DNA of 64,000 nt. Source: Dermabacter indicis (lineage in GTDB: Bacteria > Actinomycetota > Actinomycetes > Actinomycetales > Dermabacteraceae). Positions 9,720 to 33,489 of the stretch are shown here, in pieces. The DNA is taken from NCBI GenBank assembly GCA_001403775.1, contig CYUG01000011.1, positions 209,051 through 273,050 on the forward strand, written 5' to 3'. Every line of letters starts with the position of its first letter. Positions within the stretch are counted from its first letter, which is position 1. The notes beneath the pieces were generated by a model. That model searched no databases, was not told where the DNA came from, and saw nothing but the letters and a program-made list of their open reading frames with translations. The position numbers were made by a program, and so were the translations under genes.

Positions 9720-9730
9720 CGCGGATAAAT

Positions 9731-9830: not shown

Positions 9831-12221
9831 ATGTCTACATTTTTCGGTCACGTGTCCTTTGACGGAGACATGAAGGCTTGGCCCGAAGGAGCGAGCAACA
9901 GCAATCTCGCGCTCGAAGGGTATGTGATCCCGGTCGGCTCGCCGGAAGCACTGTCGGGGACCGCGGGGTCCGACGTTTGCTCGCGCCTCATCGAGGCGGA
10001 AGGCATCTCCTCCCTCGCTTCACTCGATGGCGAGTTCGCGGTAGCTTTCCTGGACTCAGATTCTTCCCTTGTGCTCGCACGGGACCAGCTTGGCCTTCGA
10101 CCTCTCTACTACGCCAAGACCGAAGAGGGCATGGCTTTCGCCTCGTCGATCGCGAGTGTCATTTCGCGCGCCGGACTTCGGCGTGAGCCCAATCTCGATG
10201 TGGTGCGCCGCTATCTCCTCGGCGAGGATCATCGCGGGTCTGAAACCTTCTTCGCGGGGGTTTCCCGTGTCCTTCCCGGCGAGGTGGTGCGCTTCTCGCG
10301 AGGCGAGGTCGAACGCTCATCGCTCGCGCACGAGGCGAGCGAGGTTTTCTCTATTTCCTCGAATCCGCGCCGCGCCGACCACACGTGCGTCGACGAGTTC
10401 CGCACACGACTCGGGGAAGCAGTGACGCGTCGTGCCACGGAGAAGGGCGCTCTCCTCGTCACTTCGGTCGACCCGATCGGGGCGAGCTCCCTCGAAAGTG
10501 CCTCGCGCGCCGCACGCGCGAACCTGGACTCCCTTACGCTCGCCGCTTCCACGGGTGGCCCCGAGCTCGACACGGCGTGCGAAGCCGACGCGAAGGCCAC
10601 TCCTCAGGGGTTGAAGGGCGATCTTCCCCGCATGCTTCGCACGTTCGAGGAGCCACCGACGTCGCTTACCTCCTATTTCACGTGGCTAGCGATTCGCGCA
10701 TGTGCAAAGAACGGCTCAACCCTCGCACTTGATTCCTACGGTGCGCGTGCACTTCGGGCGCCCGAGAAGGATCGTCGCTCGCTGGTGTCGCGCGTGCTGG
10801 ACTCCGCTCGCCTTCGCGAGAAGGCCTCCACCGATGCCCTTCTCGGTTCCGCCTTGCGCGAGCACAAAGCTGAACAACGGGTCGCAGTCGAGCCTGTTCC
10901 CGAATACGAGGGCCCGCTCGCCTCGCTCGGCACTGCGGGCTGCGTCGAAGCGGAGCAACGAGCCAAGGCTGCGCGTTCGTTCGGCAACGCCATCGCGGTT
11001 CGATCCCCGTTCACCGATCGCGAGCTCCTTCGTTTCTACACTTCGCTCGACGACACCGCTTTCGGCAAGGGAGGCTCTCCCTCCCTCATCGAAGCTGCAC
11101 TTGATCACCGGTCCTTCGAGGATTCAGTCCAGACTTCGCACGAGCGCGAAACCGCATGGTTCAAGCGCATCAAGGGCACCTACTTCTCGCTGTTTTCCTC
11201 GCAAACATTCGGCACGCGAGGCTGGTTCGACCAGGCGGAGATCCTCAAGGCATACGACGCCCACATCAATGGCCGCGCGGGGCTCAGCGCGGGCCAGCTG
11301 TGGCGTTTCGCATGCGCCGAGCTGTGGGCGCGTGTGTTCTTCGATTCGGCGGATCTGAGCGAGCAAGAAGCTGGTGAGGATGCCGATCACTTTGCGGGCG
11401 ACAACGGTCAGTCGCTTCCGCCGGATCCCCACACGCCGCTCACGGCGAACGCGGGAAAGCAACTCGATCTCGAGCTCGAGGGTGACATTCTGGCCCGCCG
11501 CTACCCCATTCAGACCGAGAAGTTCTCGAAGGACTCGCGCATGGATGACGAGATTGCCGGGTATGTTGAGCGCTTCTTCGCCGAGCTCGATGCTCGTGGC
11601 ACCGATGAGGATCGCCACGCGACCGAGGGGCGCCCATGGAACTTCACGGTTTCTGAGAAGATCATCGCGATCATGCAGGGCCGCTCATGGTTCGTGTGGG
11701 AAATCAAGCCGTCCTTCGCCGCGAAGCTACTCTCGAAGTTCGTCACGCGCACCCCCGCGGGCATCGGCCTCGGAGACCCGGTGACGATGCAGCTCGCGAT
11801 TAACGAGGCGGGCCTTGGGCGCATCACTTATGCCGCAGCTCTGGGCGCTCTCGGCAAACTGCGAGGCAAGCGGGGCGTCTTCTACGAACTCGCGGGGGCG
11901 GATGTGCGGGCGATCGACGGCCCGACCGAATACTCCGTGTATCCGTCGAATGTTTCGGCAAAGCTCCCCCCGAAAGATCCAGATCGCGTCGCGGAGCATC
12001 TCGTGAAGGTGATCCGTGAGGTCGTGCCCGAGCGCTTCGCCGCGACCTTCGACGGCGTCGTGGTCATGGATGCGAACGACATTGGGCGCAATGTGCTCGG
12101 CCTTTCCGCCTCGCGGGACCGCGAGCATTATGAAGCGCAGTTTGCCGATAATCCGCTCGGCCAGGGGTCCCAGCAAACGCCCATGGCGGTCGTGTTCGAG
12201 CGTCCCACGAGCGAGCGCTAA
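9831..12221 (+). CDS. Fusion of degenerate asparagine-synthetase-like domain and CofE-like (PF01996) domain
   Basis: The product has 796 residues. ATG 9831 was chosen because GGGAGG lies eight bases upstream; longer frames run into the tRNA terminator. Residues 1-507 follow class-II glutamine amidotransferase/asparagine synthetase order: LARDQLGLRPLYYAK (82-96), FAGVSRVLPGE (141-151), a PP-loop place (209-221), RSPFTDRELLRF (391-402) and a final Trp-rich helix. Key residues are gone: no Cys2 nucleophile (Met-Ser-Thr), the SGGxDS loop reads SVDPIGASS, and the GDGxDE loop reads DSYGARA. Residues 548-793 match the F420-0:gamma-glutamyl ligase-like family: RYPIQTEKF, SEKIIAIMQGR, FVTRTPAGIGLGDPVTMQLA, GKRGVFYELAG, AIDGPTEYSVYP and DANDIGRNVLG. 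The second half may therefore still be a ligase while the first serves as a scaffold. No F420 genes are in the window. The substrate is unknown. The gene ends 8 bases from a convergent Nudix gene. Confidence 0.85.
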   Translation: MSTFFGHVSFDGDMKAWPEGASNSNLALEGYVIPVGSPEALSGTAGSDVCSRLIEAEGISSLASLDGEFAVAFLDSDSSLVLARDQLGLRPLYYAKTEEGMAFASSIASVISRAGLRREPNLDVVRRYLLGEDHRGSETFFAGVSRVLPGEVVRFSRGEVERSSLAHEASEVFSISSNPRRADHTCVDEFRTRLGEAVTRRATEKGALLVTSVDPIGASSLESASRAARANLDSLTLAASTGGPELDTACEADAKATPQGLKGDLPRMLRTFEEPPTSLTSYFTWLAIRACAKNGSTLALDSYGARALRAPEKDRRSLVSRVLDSARLREKASTDALLGSALREHKAEQRVAVEPVPEYEGPLASLGTAGCVEAEQRAKAARSFGNAIAVRSPFTDRELLRFYTSLDDTAFGKGGSPSLIEAALDHRSFEDSVQTSHERETAWFKRIKGTYFSLFSSQTFGTRGWFDQAEILKAYDAHINGRAGLSAGQLWRFACAELWARVFFDSADLSEQEAGEDADHFAGDNGQSLPPDPHTPLTANAGKQLDLELEGDILARRYPIQTEKFSKDSRMDDEIAGYVERFFAELDARGTDEDRHATEGRPWNFTVSEKIIAIMQGRSWFVWEIKPSFAAKLLSKFVTRTPAGIGLGDPVTMQLAINEAGLGRITYAAALGALGKLRGKRGVFYELAGADVRAIDGPTEYSVYPSNVSAKLPPKDPDRVAEHLVKVIREVVPERFAATFDGVVVMDANDIGRNVLGLSASRDREHYEAQFADNPLGQGSQQTPMAVVFERPTSER

Positions 12222-12229
12222 GAGAGGTC

Positions 12230-12715
12230 CTACCGCTCAAATTTCGCCACGTGCTCGCCACTGTCGACTTGCGCGAGCGCGTGGCAAAATCCTTCTGTGA
12301 AGCGGCTATTGAGCTCCGGCGGCTCACCGATGGGGAACCACGCGGCTTGCAGGTTTTCGCCATCCGCTGGGTGCGGGTCGCCCTCCACGTGGATCGCGAC
12401 GAACGCGAGATCGAGATAGCTCGCCACGTCACCATTGGGGTGGGTCACCGGGCCGACGCATCCCACATTCGAGAGAAACTCAATCTCGCACGCGCATCCC
12501 GTTTCCTCAAGAACCTCGCGAGCACCCGCACGGGCGGGAGCTTCACCGGGATCGATGATCCCGGTGACCGGAGTCCACGCGCGGTTATCCGCCCGCTGGA
12601 CGAAGAGGCAGTGTGTGCGGTCCTTGTTCAGCACGAACACCGTCACGCCTGAGAGCCACAGGTGGTCGTGACCAATTTTCTCGCGCAGGGCGATCACAAA
12701 GTCGGGCGCGGGCAT
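12230..12715 (-). CDS. Nudix hydrolase
   Basis: A 161-residue protein with a complete Nudix box: G-IIDPG-E-APARAGA-REVLEETG, at about residues 52-74, following the G-x5-E-x7-REUxEExGU rule. The metal-binding glutamates are present, so it should be active on a nucleoside diphosphate linked to another group; the exact substrate cannot be read from sequence. It lies 11 bases downstream of the Cmk-Der gene and probably shares its transcript. The stop is 8 bases from the stop of the convergent fusion gene, leaving no room for a separate terminator. Confidence 0.92.
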   Translation of the reverse strand: MPAPDFVIALREKIGHDHLWLSGVTVFVLNKDRTHCLFVQRADNRAWTPVTGIIDPGEAPARAGAREVLEETGCACEIEFLSNVGCVGPVTHPNGDVASYLDLAFVAIHVEGDPHPADGENLQAAWFPIGEPPELNSRFTEGFCHALAQVDSGEHVAKFER

Positions 12716-12726
12716 GGTGCCCCTCC

Positions 12727-14898
12727 TTACCTGTTTTTCCTCTTTTCGCGGACGCGCACGCTGATCTCCACGGGCGAACCGTCAAAGGAGAAGTCCTCGC
12801 GCAAGCGTCGCTCGATAAAGCGGCGATAGCCGTGCTCGAGAAAGCCCGAAGCGAAGATGACGAAGCGCGGCGGCCGCGTGCGGGCCTGGGTCGCAAAGAG
12901 GATGCGCGGCTGTTTTCCGCCACGAAGCGGATGCGGGTGGGCGGCCACGAGCGTTCCAAGGAAAGCGTTGAGTCGTGCCGTAGGAATACGTGTATCCCAC
13001 GACTCAAGGGCGAGGTCGAGCGCCGTAACGAGCTTATCGGTGTGGCGACCCGTGCGCGCAGAGATGTTCACTCGCGGCGCCCATCGCACGTGTGAGAGGT
13101 CCTTTTCGATCTCCCACTCGAGTTGCGCGCGGCGCTCTTCGCTAAGAAGATCCCACTTGTTGAAGGCGAGCACGAGGGCGCGACCCGACTCGAGGACCAT
13201 GTCGATAATCTTGAGGTCTTGAGTCGAGATCGGTTCCGTGGCCTCGAGGAGAACGACGGCGACTTCAGCGCGATCGAGGGCTGCCTGGGTGCGGATCGAG
13301 GCGAAGAAGTCGGCGCCTTCGCTTTGGCGGATACGACGGCGGATTCCGGCAGTGTCCACAAACGTCCACTCACGCCCGTCGAGTTCGATGACTTCGTCGA
13401 CGGGGTCACGCGTTGTGCCCGCGGTCGAGTCCACGACAACGCGGTTCTCGCGCGCGAGCTTATTGAGCAAGGAACTCTTACCCACGTTCGGTCGGCCGAT
13501 GAGGGCCACGCGCCGTGGCCCGCTCGGTTTGGCGCGCGTCTGCCCCTCCTCGGGGAGGATCTCAAGAACACGGTCGAGCACGTCACCGGAGCCGCGTCCA
13601 TGGAGTGCGGAAACAGGATGGGGCTCACCAAGACCGAGATTCCACAGAGCCGCTGCCTCGAGTTCGCCGCGCTGATCGTCAACCTTATTCGCGACGAGCA
13701 GCACGGGTTTCTTGGAGCGGCGCAGCACCTTCACGAGTTGCTCGTCAGTGTGAGTGATGCCCACGTTGGCGTCGACAACAAACATCACAGCATCGGCGAG
13801 GCCGATCGCGAGCTCGGCCTGTTCGGCGACGCGGTAGGCAACTCCCTCGACCTTATCTTCCCAGCCGCCAGTGTCGACGAGCATGAAGTCGCGCCCCGCC
13901 CAGTTGGCCTCATAGAACACGCGGTCACGCGTCACACCGGGAGTGTCCTCCACAACCGCCTCGCGGTGGCCGAGGATGCGGTTCACGAGCGTGGACTTGC
14001 CGACGTTCGGTCGGCCGATCACGGCAAGCACCGGAAGCATGCGCTCATCCTCGGCGCTCTCGATCGGCGCGTAATCGTCAGTGAGGAGGCGCTGATCGTC
14101 ATCGTTGAGGCCATAATCCTCAAGGCCCGCGCGCAGCGAGGCCGTACGCGCCTCGTCATCGAGGGCATCGGGGCTTGCATCATCGCGTACGTCTTCGACT
14201 TCAGGTTGGTCGTCGACGAGTTCGATACCGGGAACCAGTTCGAGAACCGCGTTGATGACCTCTTCGATGCCGAGGTCAGTCGTGTCGATCAGGTCGACGC
14301 CTTCCGCGGCCTGCGTGAATTCTGAAACGGTCGAGTCGTCGGCGTCGCGTCGAAGGACCTGGTCGCGCATGCGCTCGCGTACTTCTTCTGACTGCTCGAG
14401 CCCGAGCTGCCCGGCACGGCGTCTCAGGCGCGCCTCGGCGCTCGCGGTGAGAAGCACGCGCACATCAGCATCCGGCGCCACAACCGTCGTGATGTCGCGG
14501 CCCTCAGCGACGCAGAAACCCTTCTCGTTCGCCGTCTGGAAGAAAACCGCGCGTTGGCGCTCCTGAAGAATCGCGCGCACATCGGTGTTGGTCGCGACGC
14601 GGCTCACACACGTCGAGATCTCCTCGGTGCGGATCTGCGAAGAAATCTCTGTGCCCTCGACGAAGATGTAAGGCTCGTCGGGGTCGGTCGACATCACGAG
14701 ATCGAATTCCGCCACGTGCGCCGTGACGGCCTCTTTGTCGTCGAGGTCAACGCCCTCGTTGAGGCAGGACCACGCGGCCGCGCGGTACATCGCGCCCGTA
14801 TCGAGATAGCCGCCCTCGAGGGCACGTGCCACCTCTTTCGACACCGTGGACTTCCCCGAACCTGCGGGGCCATCGATCGCGATGGTGACGCCGTTCAT
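12727..14898 (-). CDS. cmk-der: Bifunctional cytidylate kinase / GTPase Der
   Basis: The product has 723 residues from ATG 14898 (GGGAGG upstream; the longer frame is rejected). Residues 1-226 are cytidylate kinase: P-loop GPAGSGKST (10-18), LDTGAMYRA and [10 protein letters not shown]. This half phosphorylates CMP and dCMP. An acidic linker (about 227-287) leads to Der, which has two GTPase domains, each with GRPNVGKS followed by [21 protein letters not shown] or DTAGI, and NKVD/NKWD, and ends in a KH-like domain with LRGGKQPRI. Der acts in large-subunit ribosome assembly. The same fusion is known from other actinobacteria. The gene lies in the conserved tyrA-cmk/der order, 72 bases after tyrA. 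Confidence 0.97.
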
Positions 14899-14970
14899 GC
14901 CTATACCTCCCCTGTCGATGGTCAACTTCTAAGCCTAGTCGCGGGTTGCTCATGCGCGGGCTCCTCACCT

Positions 14971-32472: not shown

Positions 32473-33489
32473 TCAGTCCTTCCGTGGGTAGTTGAAAACG
32501 CCATTAAACACGTCGCGATATGCGGTCGCGAGTCGAAGCGGGTCGTGAGTGGGTTTCCCGGCGCCCGTCGAGACCATGCGCATCAGCACGTCGATACCGC
32601 GCTCATGCGCCGCGCGGATGAGCGCTTCCCCACCGTCGGGTTCGGCGGAGGGGTCGGCAACGAGGGCGTCAAAACTGAGATCGGGCGCGGCATCACACAC
32701 GATGGTTAAGAGGTCAACGCTGGTGAGTCCGACGGTTTCCGAGCGTCCCGCCGCGAGGTTCATCGTAAGTACTTTGCGCGCCTTGGTGTGGGTGATCGCC
32801 TCGCGCAGCTCGGGGATTTTCACGTGCGGGAGCACGGATGTGTACCAGCTGCCGGGACCGATGACGAGCCATTCGGCTTCGTTAATCGAGTCGAGCACCT
32901 CGCGGGCAATTTCGGGCTCCGGCGGGATGATGCGCACTGCCTCAACGTGGCCGGTCGTTGCCGCGACGTTCGCTTGGCCGCGGATTGTGCGGGTTCCCTC
33001 CCCCGGCAGCGAGACGAGAGCCTCGATGTCGAGGGGTTCGAGGGCCATGGGCAGCACGCGGCCCGACGTTCCCAGCAGCTCGCCGACGTAGTCGAGGGCG
33101 GCAATGGGGTCGTCGAGAAGCTGCCAGAGCGCAACGATCAGGAGATTACCGAGCGAGTGTCCGTTAAGTTCGCCGTCGGAAGTGAAACGGTGCTGGACGA
33201 CGTCGCGCCATGTTACGCCCCACTCCGAGTCTTCGCACAGGGCTGAAAGTGCCATGCGGAGATCGCCGGGAGGGAGAATCGGCATCTCGGCACGCAGACG
33301 GCCTGAAGAGCCCCCGTTATCGGCAACCGTGACGACGGCGGTCAGGTCACGCGTGAGGTGCCGAAGCGCATTGAGGCTTGCCGAGAGTCCGTGCCCGCCG
33401 CCAAAAGCCACGACTTTTGGCCCGCGCGTGCGGCTGCGCAAAGGCGTGGGCATGAGCGAGGACGTACGCCTCGGGACATTGGCACTCAT
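32473..33489 (-). CDS. yvcK: Gluconeogenesis factor YvcK-family protein
   Basis: A 338-residue protein of the CofD/YvcK fold: [20 protein letters not shown] near residue 25, [29 protein letters not shown] and [16 protein letters not shown]. In Bacillus and Mycobacterium the homologue (CuvA) binds UDP-sugars and links carbon source to wall synthesis. A conserved partner of rapZ and whiA, it lies five bases after rapZ. Confidence 0.93.

Follow-up and report, generated by a model that had tools for sequence, protein, structure and literature searches.

An AsnB-like/CofE-like fusion protein as a probable non-homologous replacement of MurT-GatD in Dermabacter and other actinobacteria

A single-frame fusion gene in Dermabacter indicis

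We analyzed a 64 000-nt stretch of Dermabacter indicis DNA (assembly GCA_001403775.1, contig CYUG01000011.1, positions 209,051 to 273,050 of the forward strand; hereafter, the window), which belongs to a genome of 2.23 Mb, and focused on a gene at positions 9831–12221 of the window. This gene encodes a 796-amino-acid (aa) protein in which a half resembling the asparagine synthetase AsnB is joined to a half resembling the coenzyme F420 ligase CofE. An earlier note, made from the letters of the window alone, had described it as one frame that stands alone, and both statements were borne out: the open reading frame (ORF) is uninterrupted, and the flanking genes on both sides lie on the opposite strand. 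The frame is not a frameshift artefact, as a search of three further congeners recovered the full-length protein from two (77% and 69% identity) and both halves lie in one frame in many further relatives. The third congener (G002; genomes, loci and families are hereafter labeled G, L and f) lacks the fusion and showed an AsnB match only. There is an in-frame ATG upstream at position 9729; the alignment of relatives favors a start near 9831.

The two halves of the protein

Residues 1–507 matched the Pfam families GATase_7 (E = 6e-13) and, weakly, Asn_synthase (E = 1e-4), and the protein did not reach the cut-off of the AsnB equivalog model TIGR01536 (72.8 versus 267.1 bits). In the predicted structure of the full-length protein (mean predicted local distance difference test score, pLDDT, 75.6), residues 2–506 matched Escherichia coli AsnB (1ct9_B; Z = 25.2, root-mean-square deviation (rmsd) 3.6, 381 aligned residues), and this half therefore has the AsnB fold. 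It had been proposed to be inactivated, and the motif losses were seen as stated, in Dermabacter: Cys2, the PP-loop and the acidic GxGxDE motif are all absent from the window protein (P0001 in alignment A1), which retains only relics of the latter two (Table 1). No AsnB above the TIGR01536 cut-off was found in the Dermabacter genomes G000 (the source genome), G001 and G003.

For residues 548–796, the sole Pfam match was PF01996 (E = 0.0018), which at 18.2 bits lies under the 25-bit cut-off, and the CofE model TIGR01916 was not reached either (12.5 versus 180.65 bits). Each of the 19 sequences in the C-terminal alignment gave a PF01996 match with E no higher than 1, the best being 1.9e-5, and the family cut-off was passed (34.5 bits) by one of two distant relatives fused to tetratricopeptide (TPR) repeats. 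The C-terminal half predicted alone (mean pLDDT 84.6) matched A. fulgidus CofE (Z = 13.1, rmsd 3.7, 184 aligned residues, 22% identity) and showed the CofE fold in a Foldseek comparison as well (E = 2.1e-7). Consistently, a 25-row profile (A3) matched solved CofE chains in the PDB (E = 6e-7); the PDB search with profile A2 returned nothing. Fifteen positions are invariant in all 25 rows of A3, including D696, D747, N774, P775, G777, T783 and P784. D747 aligns with the Asp of the IITDTN stretch of the CofE chains, and D696 and D747 are putative metal ligands. The previous characterization of this half as a well-conserved CofE/PF01996 domain is too strong: it is a distant CofE homolog below the family cut-offs.

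We compared selection on the two halves using the ratio of nonsynonymous to synonymous substitution rates (dN/dS) in three Dermabacter pairs (Nei-Gojobori method; dS was mostly >1, and the values are therefore rough). Strong selection acts on the CofE-like half (Table 1), whereas residues 1–430 gave 0.16–0.31 and the last part of the AsnB-like half was more constrained. These values indicate that the dead half evolves under relaxed, yet not free, conditions in Dermabacter.

CofD (TIGR01819), the one F420 gene searched for, was found above its cut-off in 0 of 35 Dermabacteraceae genomes versus 12 of 21 others. F420 is therefore an unlikely substrate, in line with the earlier suggestion of an F420-independent one, and gene names such as ‘F420 ligase’ mislead for these proteins. 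A weak CofD-like match lies in the window at 32770–33084 on the minus strand (20.6 bits versus a cut-off of 257.45); we presume that it is a YvcK-type gene.

Spread of the fusion and decay of the AsnB-like half

A survey of relatives showed that the fusion is widespread. The CofE-like domain was found in 25 of 35 Dermabacteraceae genomes, in 23 of which it forms part of a single frame of 804–983 aa. The other two are G026 (probably Brachybacterium avium; L050, 5976–8725), in which the two halves lie in different frames through a frameshift or a natural split, and G029, in which the fusion is cut off by the contig end. Fusions also occur in Gleimia, in an Actinomycetaceae metagenome-assembled genome, in two more families of this order (f6 and f17) and, beyond the class, in f96. 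In genus g184 of f44 (7/7 genomes) the halves are separate genes, with asnB immediately before cofE (L086: sepF-proC-yggT-asnB-cofE-divIVA). A third layout was seen in f59 (L097 of G350 and L100 of G293), where TPR repeats are fused to a distant CofE-like domain; neither genome has a match to the MurT_C domain of MurT.

All three AsnB motifs (Cys2, SGGLDSS and DGQGADE) are kept in 10 of the 19 rows of A1 and all are lost in the other nine; in a wider set of 27 relatives, the AsnB half is intact in 17 and decayed in 10. The earlier view that the pairing consists in essence of a dead synthetase and a ligase was thus not supported; a dead AsnB half characterizes Dermabacter and certain other lineages rather than the fusion as such. 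Decay requires four changes on a tree of 33 CofE-like domains (counted on 32 rows, the truncated G029 row being excluded; some forks are poorly supported), and intact Gleimia is the sister of decayed Dermabacter. Another decayed half lies beyond that tree, in L179 (f17). Judging from these sequences, the fusion is old and the decay of its AsnB half is secondary. Since the motifs are intact in 10 rows of A1, the AsnB half would formerly have been a second complete enzyme, which was later lost in Dermabacter.

We also constructed a tree of 36 AsnBs, in which a branch with a Shimodaira–Hasegawa-like approximate likelihood ratio test (SH-aLRT) value of 100 separated 24 rows (17 fused, 6 adjacent to cofE and 1 separate AsnB, L053) from the 12 others. 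A single clade of the 23 fused and adjacent rows was rejected (approximately unbiased (AU) test, P = 1.2e-5), L053 falling inside. This separate AsnB (L053, 4760–6697) belongs to Devriesea agamarum (G008), whose fused half is decayed; the AsnB activity of G008 may have moved in trans to it.

A plasmid search with the fusion gave no match, and a search of a phage collection gave two matching records, the second at 34% identity. The other, L140 (MT835656.1, an unverified faecal ‘Bacteriophage sp.’), was rejected as a phage-borne fusion: across 4297 bases it shares 98.7% identity with a Brachybacterium-group genome (G033, L020), and it appears to be bacterial DNA.

Mutual exclusion with MurT

We compared the occurrence of the CofE-like gene (called at E up to 1e-20, weaker matches not being listed) with that of MurT, scored by a MurT_C (PF08353) match, in 396 genomes of the order. 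The CofE-like gene was present in 55 and MurT_C in 138, while no genome had both, compared with about 19 expected by chance (55 × 138 / 396; Fisher's exact test, P = 7.5e-12); 203 had neither. Within Dermabacteraceae, none of the 25 genomes that carry the gene had MurT_C, against 9 of the 10 that lack it (P = 1.4e-7, Fisher's exact test); the source genome of the window has no PF08353 match, and the control, Corynebacterium glutamicum, has MurT_C. On a Cmk-Der tree of this family, the gene changes state five times and MurT_C four times.

The same tendency was observed among 99 relatives of G271, of which 50 matched A3 at E up to 0.001. Twenty of these matches were strong (E = 1e-74 or better), and MurT_C was found in none of the 20 genomes. 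The remaining 30 were weak and partial only (E = 8e-8 to 8e-4); 29 of these genomes have MurT_C, and all 30 were taken to carry ordinary CofE and excluded from the exclusion count. In the same families, every genome without a strong match had MurT_C (f44, 12/12; f96, 4/4; f59, 8/8), several f96 genomes being incomplete (74–97%). Eight of the 27 genomes of a phylum census were included in the MurT search (G000, G318, G333, G399, G271, G369, G293 and G350), and none had MurT_C. Both states occur inside seven families, never together, and no genome with both systems was found among those examined. When the three f1 (Dermabacteraceae) pairs were counted by hand together with one contrast each in f6, f17, f19, f44, f96 and f59, 9 out of 9 changed in opposite directions (sign test, P = 0.004). 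The exclusion of MurT_C also holds for the solo cofE-like genes of f19 and for fusions whose AsnB half is dead.

Occupation of the murT-gatD position

We next compared gene neighborhoods and found that murT-gatD or the CofE-like gene lies between the same neighbors in four of them (Brachybacterium, f19, f6 and f17) and beside the same neighbors in a fifth (Dermabacter). In Dermabacter G002, the order is cmk-der, NUDIX, murT and gatD, and in the window the fusion has these NUDIX and cmk-der genes as its neighbors (58% and 80% identity, respectively). GatD, a class I amidotransferase, is present at the G002 locus and was not seen beside the window gene, an observation that concerns this locus, no genome-wide GatD search having been made. 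In Brachybacterium, G023 and G016 carry HAD, murT, gatD, thyX, dapA, rnj and ftsK, and in most CofE-bearing loci examined the fusion lies ahead of dapA, rnj and ftsK; L045 shows HAD, fusion, thyX and dapA, and G012 has the dapA-rnj-ftsK side in common. The f19 slot, which holds either murT-gatD or a solo cofE-like gene, comes after a sigma-70 gene and has a gyrB-type gene beyond it; the overlap with the sigma-70 gene is 4 bp in three murT loci (L252, L253 and L254) and three cofE loci (L083, L084 and L088), and there are small gaps in L261, L186 and L195. In f6, the fusion, or in L255 murT-gatD, occupies the interval between an M3 peptidase gene and pdxT-yebC. The f17 fusion starts 57–99 bases after guaA in the five loci measured (L178, L179, L181, L185 and L194); the other side of the slot is the PIG-L side, and L259 and L258 have shared genes on their far side.

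Operon context by itself was discarded as a functional clue. The neighbors vary by family (dapA, guaA, sigma-70, eno-divIC, ABC transporter, SAM synthetase and lysC-asd), and they become meaningful only when set against murT loci. Solo cofE-like genes stand in for murT-gatD, as do fusions whose AsnB half is dead, so the replacing part seems to be the CofE-like half, which seems to suffice alone. The exchange may have come about either by in-place replacement or by differential loss from an ancestral tandem.

Table 1. Features of the fusion gene and of its flank in the window
Feature	Position	Strand	Evidence
AsnB-like/CofE-like fusion gene, 796 aa	9831–12221	+	ORF, congener matches, alignment
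AsnB-fold half, residues 1–505; pseudo-enzyme without Cys2, PP-loop and DGQGxDE	9831–11345	+	Pfam, alignment, structure match
PP-loop relic SVDPIGASS, residues 212–220 (SGGLDSS in intact relatives)	10464–10490	+	Alignment A1
DGQGADE relic DSYGARA, residues 301–307	10731–10751	+	Alignment A1
Final AsnB part, residues 431–505, more constrained	11121–11345	+	dN/dS 0.05–0.12
Linker, residues 506–539 (509–533 at pLDDT <50)	11346–11447	+	Model
CofE-fold ligase half, residues 540–796	11448–12218	+	Profile, structure, dN/dS 0.04–0.05
AIDGPT; D696 invariant in 25/25 rows of A3, putative metal ligand	11910–11927	+	Alignment
MDAND; D747 invariant in 25/25 rows, aligned with Asp of the CofE IITDTN stretch, putative metal role	12066–12080	+	Alignment
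ADNPLGQG motif; N774, P775 and G777 invariant in 25/25 rows	12144–12167	+	Alignment
NUDIX gene, flank common to the murT-gatD locus of Dermabacter G002	12230–12715	−	58% identical in G002
cmk-der gene, second gene of the common flank	12727–14925	−	80% identical in G002

Proposed function

MurT-GatD amidates the α-carboxyl of the D-glutamate at position 2 (D-Glu2) of lipid II, as described in PMC3266927 and PMC6085368, and for CofE it has been described that GTP activates a carboxylate as an acyl phosphate, which is then attacked by the amine of glutamate (PMC10861534, PMC8498797). Taken together with this chemistry, the exclusion of MurT and the exchange at the murT-gatD position are most simply explained if the CofE-like half of the fusion makes an amide at this very carboxyl of D-Glu2. 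We therefore consider it likely that the fusion is a non-homologous replacement of MurT-GatD, although the substrate carboxyl, the nucleotide, the amine and the order of steps are what we infer. The two ideas put forward earlier, an amide-bond system and a wall precursor as one of several possible substrates, would then both have been right in kind, the former by fold. The strongest clue, the exclusion of and slot exchange with murT-gatD, could not be seen from the letters of the window alone.

In the proposed mechanism, the CofE-like half would be the core enzyme, using a nucleoside triphosphate and a metal to turn the D-Glu2 α-carboxyl into an acyl phosphate, as proposed for CofE, and an amine would then attack the acyl phosphate. 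Because CofE joins an amino acid, we tentatively put an amino acid first as the amine, with glycine as the first choice. An intact AsnB half would then be a second enzyme, one that depends on glutamine and converts the new carboxyl to an amide; in Dermabacter, where this half is dead, only the ligase would be at work. A further reason to favor an amino acid is that intact AsnB halves retain a complete synthetase, which suits a dispensable second amidation more than the supply of ammonia alone. We suggest tentatively, with less confidence than for the replacement itself, that these actinobacteria substitute D-Glu2 instead of only amidating it, by a hitherto unrecognised route in which a CofE-fold ligase adds an amino acid (glycine) that the fused AsnB caps as an amide.

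The described walls of carrier organisms bear on the identity of the amine. Intrasporangium calvum (G661) has an intact fusion (L181) and no MurT_C match, and PMC3035309 describes its wall as containing LL-diaminopimelic acid (LL-A2pm), a triglycine bridge and glycine on the D-Glu2 α-carboxyl; glycine addition is preferred for this reason. The fusion of B. vulturis (G027, L043) is also intact, and its wall is stated to contain Gly (PMC6090031). However, two reports tell against glycine: the murein of B. faecium, a species described as non-pathogenic that has an intact fusion (G028), is given in PMC3035206 as containing meso-A2pm, Ala and Glu only, and the wall of B. nesterenkovii is recorded as containing Gly (PMC10581053) even though this species, if it is G022, lacks the gene.

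Alternatively, the fusion might make the same product as MurT-GatD, with ammonia completing D-isoglutamine; the AsnB half would have supplied the ammonia, and members without it would use free ammonia. This variant of the replacement is rather unlikely, although it has points in its favor. The layout of a ligase with a glutamine amidotransferase mirrors MurT plus GatD, the exclusion and the slot exchange fit it equally, the B. faecium wall lacks Gly in the account cited above, and MurT-GatD itself is described as able to use ammonia at pH 8.5 (PMC6085368). Against it, the intact AsnB half keeps the PP-loop and DGQGxDE along with Cys2, beyond what a glutaminase needs, and each of the 19 rows of A1 has either all three or none; moreover, Gly occupies that very carboxyl in I. 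calvum, and CofE joins an amino acid (PMC10861534).

Several observations weigh against a replacement of MurT-GatD as such. More than half of the order sample (203/396) has neither gene, so MurT loss alone is common, and some of these genomes may hold further D-Glu2 systems; in Dermabacteraceae, only G022 (probably B. nesterenkovii; 1/35) has neither. MurT_C was the sole criterion for MurT, and because some f19 MurTs scored only 24–38 bits, a diverged MurT could be missed. The three independent pairs on supported Dermabacteraceae branches never changed in the same direction, but are too few (sign test, P = 0.25). The slot exchange is also inexact in places: the Dermabacter loci have one flank in common only; the fusions of G010, G018 and G008 lie elsewhere, near lysC-asd, a context with no murT counterpart among the loci compared; the exact f6 slot is found in one of three murT loci (peptidase and gatD are 4.8 kb apart in L256, and only yebC is nearby in L257); in two of three f17 loci, guaA and murT are separated by 1.8 kb (L259) or 2.8 kb (L246); and no flank is common to the two systems in f44, f96 and f59.

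One might conclude from some of these points, together with the clumping of both traits by family, that the exclusion is a lineage effect without a functional link. We regard this as the most improbable of the explanations considered here, given the two states found within each of seven families, the nine opposite contrasts and the same slot taken in five neighborhoods. It is scarcely more probable that the protein glutamylates another small molecule or a wall polymer, such as F420, folate or a teichoic-acid-like polymer. The CofE homology is compatible with such an acceptor, as is qimC of Streptococcus pyogenes, which is annotated as an F420-0:gamma-glutamyl ligase and described within a wall-modification operon (PMC13059722); however, the 35 Dermabacteraceae genomes contain no CofD above the cut-off, which bears on the F420 variant, and the exclusion of MurT would be left unexplained. 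Our initial wall hypothesis was that the fusion builds the interpeptide bridge by ligating the D-Glu of peptidoglycan type A4gamma, the MurT loss being indirect. Dermabacteraceae are described as A4gamma (PMC6090031), and gamma-glutamyl ligase chemistry fits in principle. We dropped it as improbable because I. calvum carries an intact fusion with a triglycine bridge; in addition, 10 of 35 Dermabacteraceae genomes lack the fusion, and a bridge enzyme gives no reason for excluding MurT.

Implications and comparison with known systems

Several Gram-positive pathogens require MurT-GatD as an essential enzyme, and it has been called ‘universally present in the Actinobacteria’ (PMC6085368). Our results argue against this universality: 258 of the 396 genomes of the order lack a MurT_C match, 55 of these 258 have the unrelated enzyme, and at the loci compared in four families this enzyme sits at the murT-gatD position. 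Should our interpretation be correct, this wall-building step would have a second solution, made from a fold not known to serve it, and the fusion would be a candidate for the enzyme behind the glycine-substituted D-Glu2 of classical wall chemotypes. Micrococcus luteus also has Gly at D-Glu2. In B-type peptidoglycan, the bridge starts at the same D-Glu2 carboxyl, and a related enzyme could explain this type as well. The target reaction and the protein families are known, while their use here appears new. Like the earlier note, which knew of no description of the architecture, we found neither this architecture nor a replacement of MurT-GatD described among the matches listed from the open-licence literature.

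Each part of the fusion resembles a known system. The CofE-like half shares with CofE and the N-terminal domain of FbiB its fold (Z = 13.1), a distant homology in sequence and a conserved Asp at an aligned position; it differs in scoring below the family cut-offs, in the lack of CofD in Dermabacteraceae, in its motifs IDGPT, DAND and DNPLGQG, and in the AsnB that is fused or adjacent in many relatives. In Lactococcus, an AsnB-type amidotransferase, AsnH, is paired with an amino-acid ligase, the D-Asp ligase, both acting on peptidoglycan; unlike the CofE-fold half, that ligase is an ATP-grasp enzyme with the bridge as its target. For the AsnB fold, a role in amidating the wall is already known, as AsnB1 and LtsA are described as amidating meso-A2pm (PMC4632607). 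The fusion has this fold and, in many fused relatives, intact motifs in common with them, but the CofE-linked AsnBs form their own group, are dead in Dermabacter, and have stayed intact even in I. calvum, a species with LL-A2pm. Finally, the fusion and MurT-GatD have in common the genomic slot in relatives, a mutually exclusive spread, a layout of ligase plus glutamine amidotransferase and, as we propose, the target carboxyl. The fusion differs from MurT-GatD in having no Pfam match to a Mur ligase or a class I glutamine amidotransferase, and in combining instead a CofE fold with a dispensable class II, AsnB-type half.

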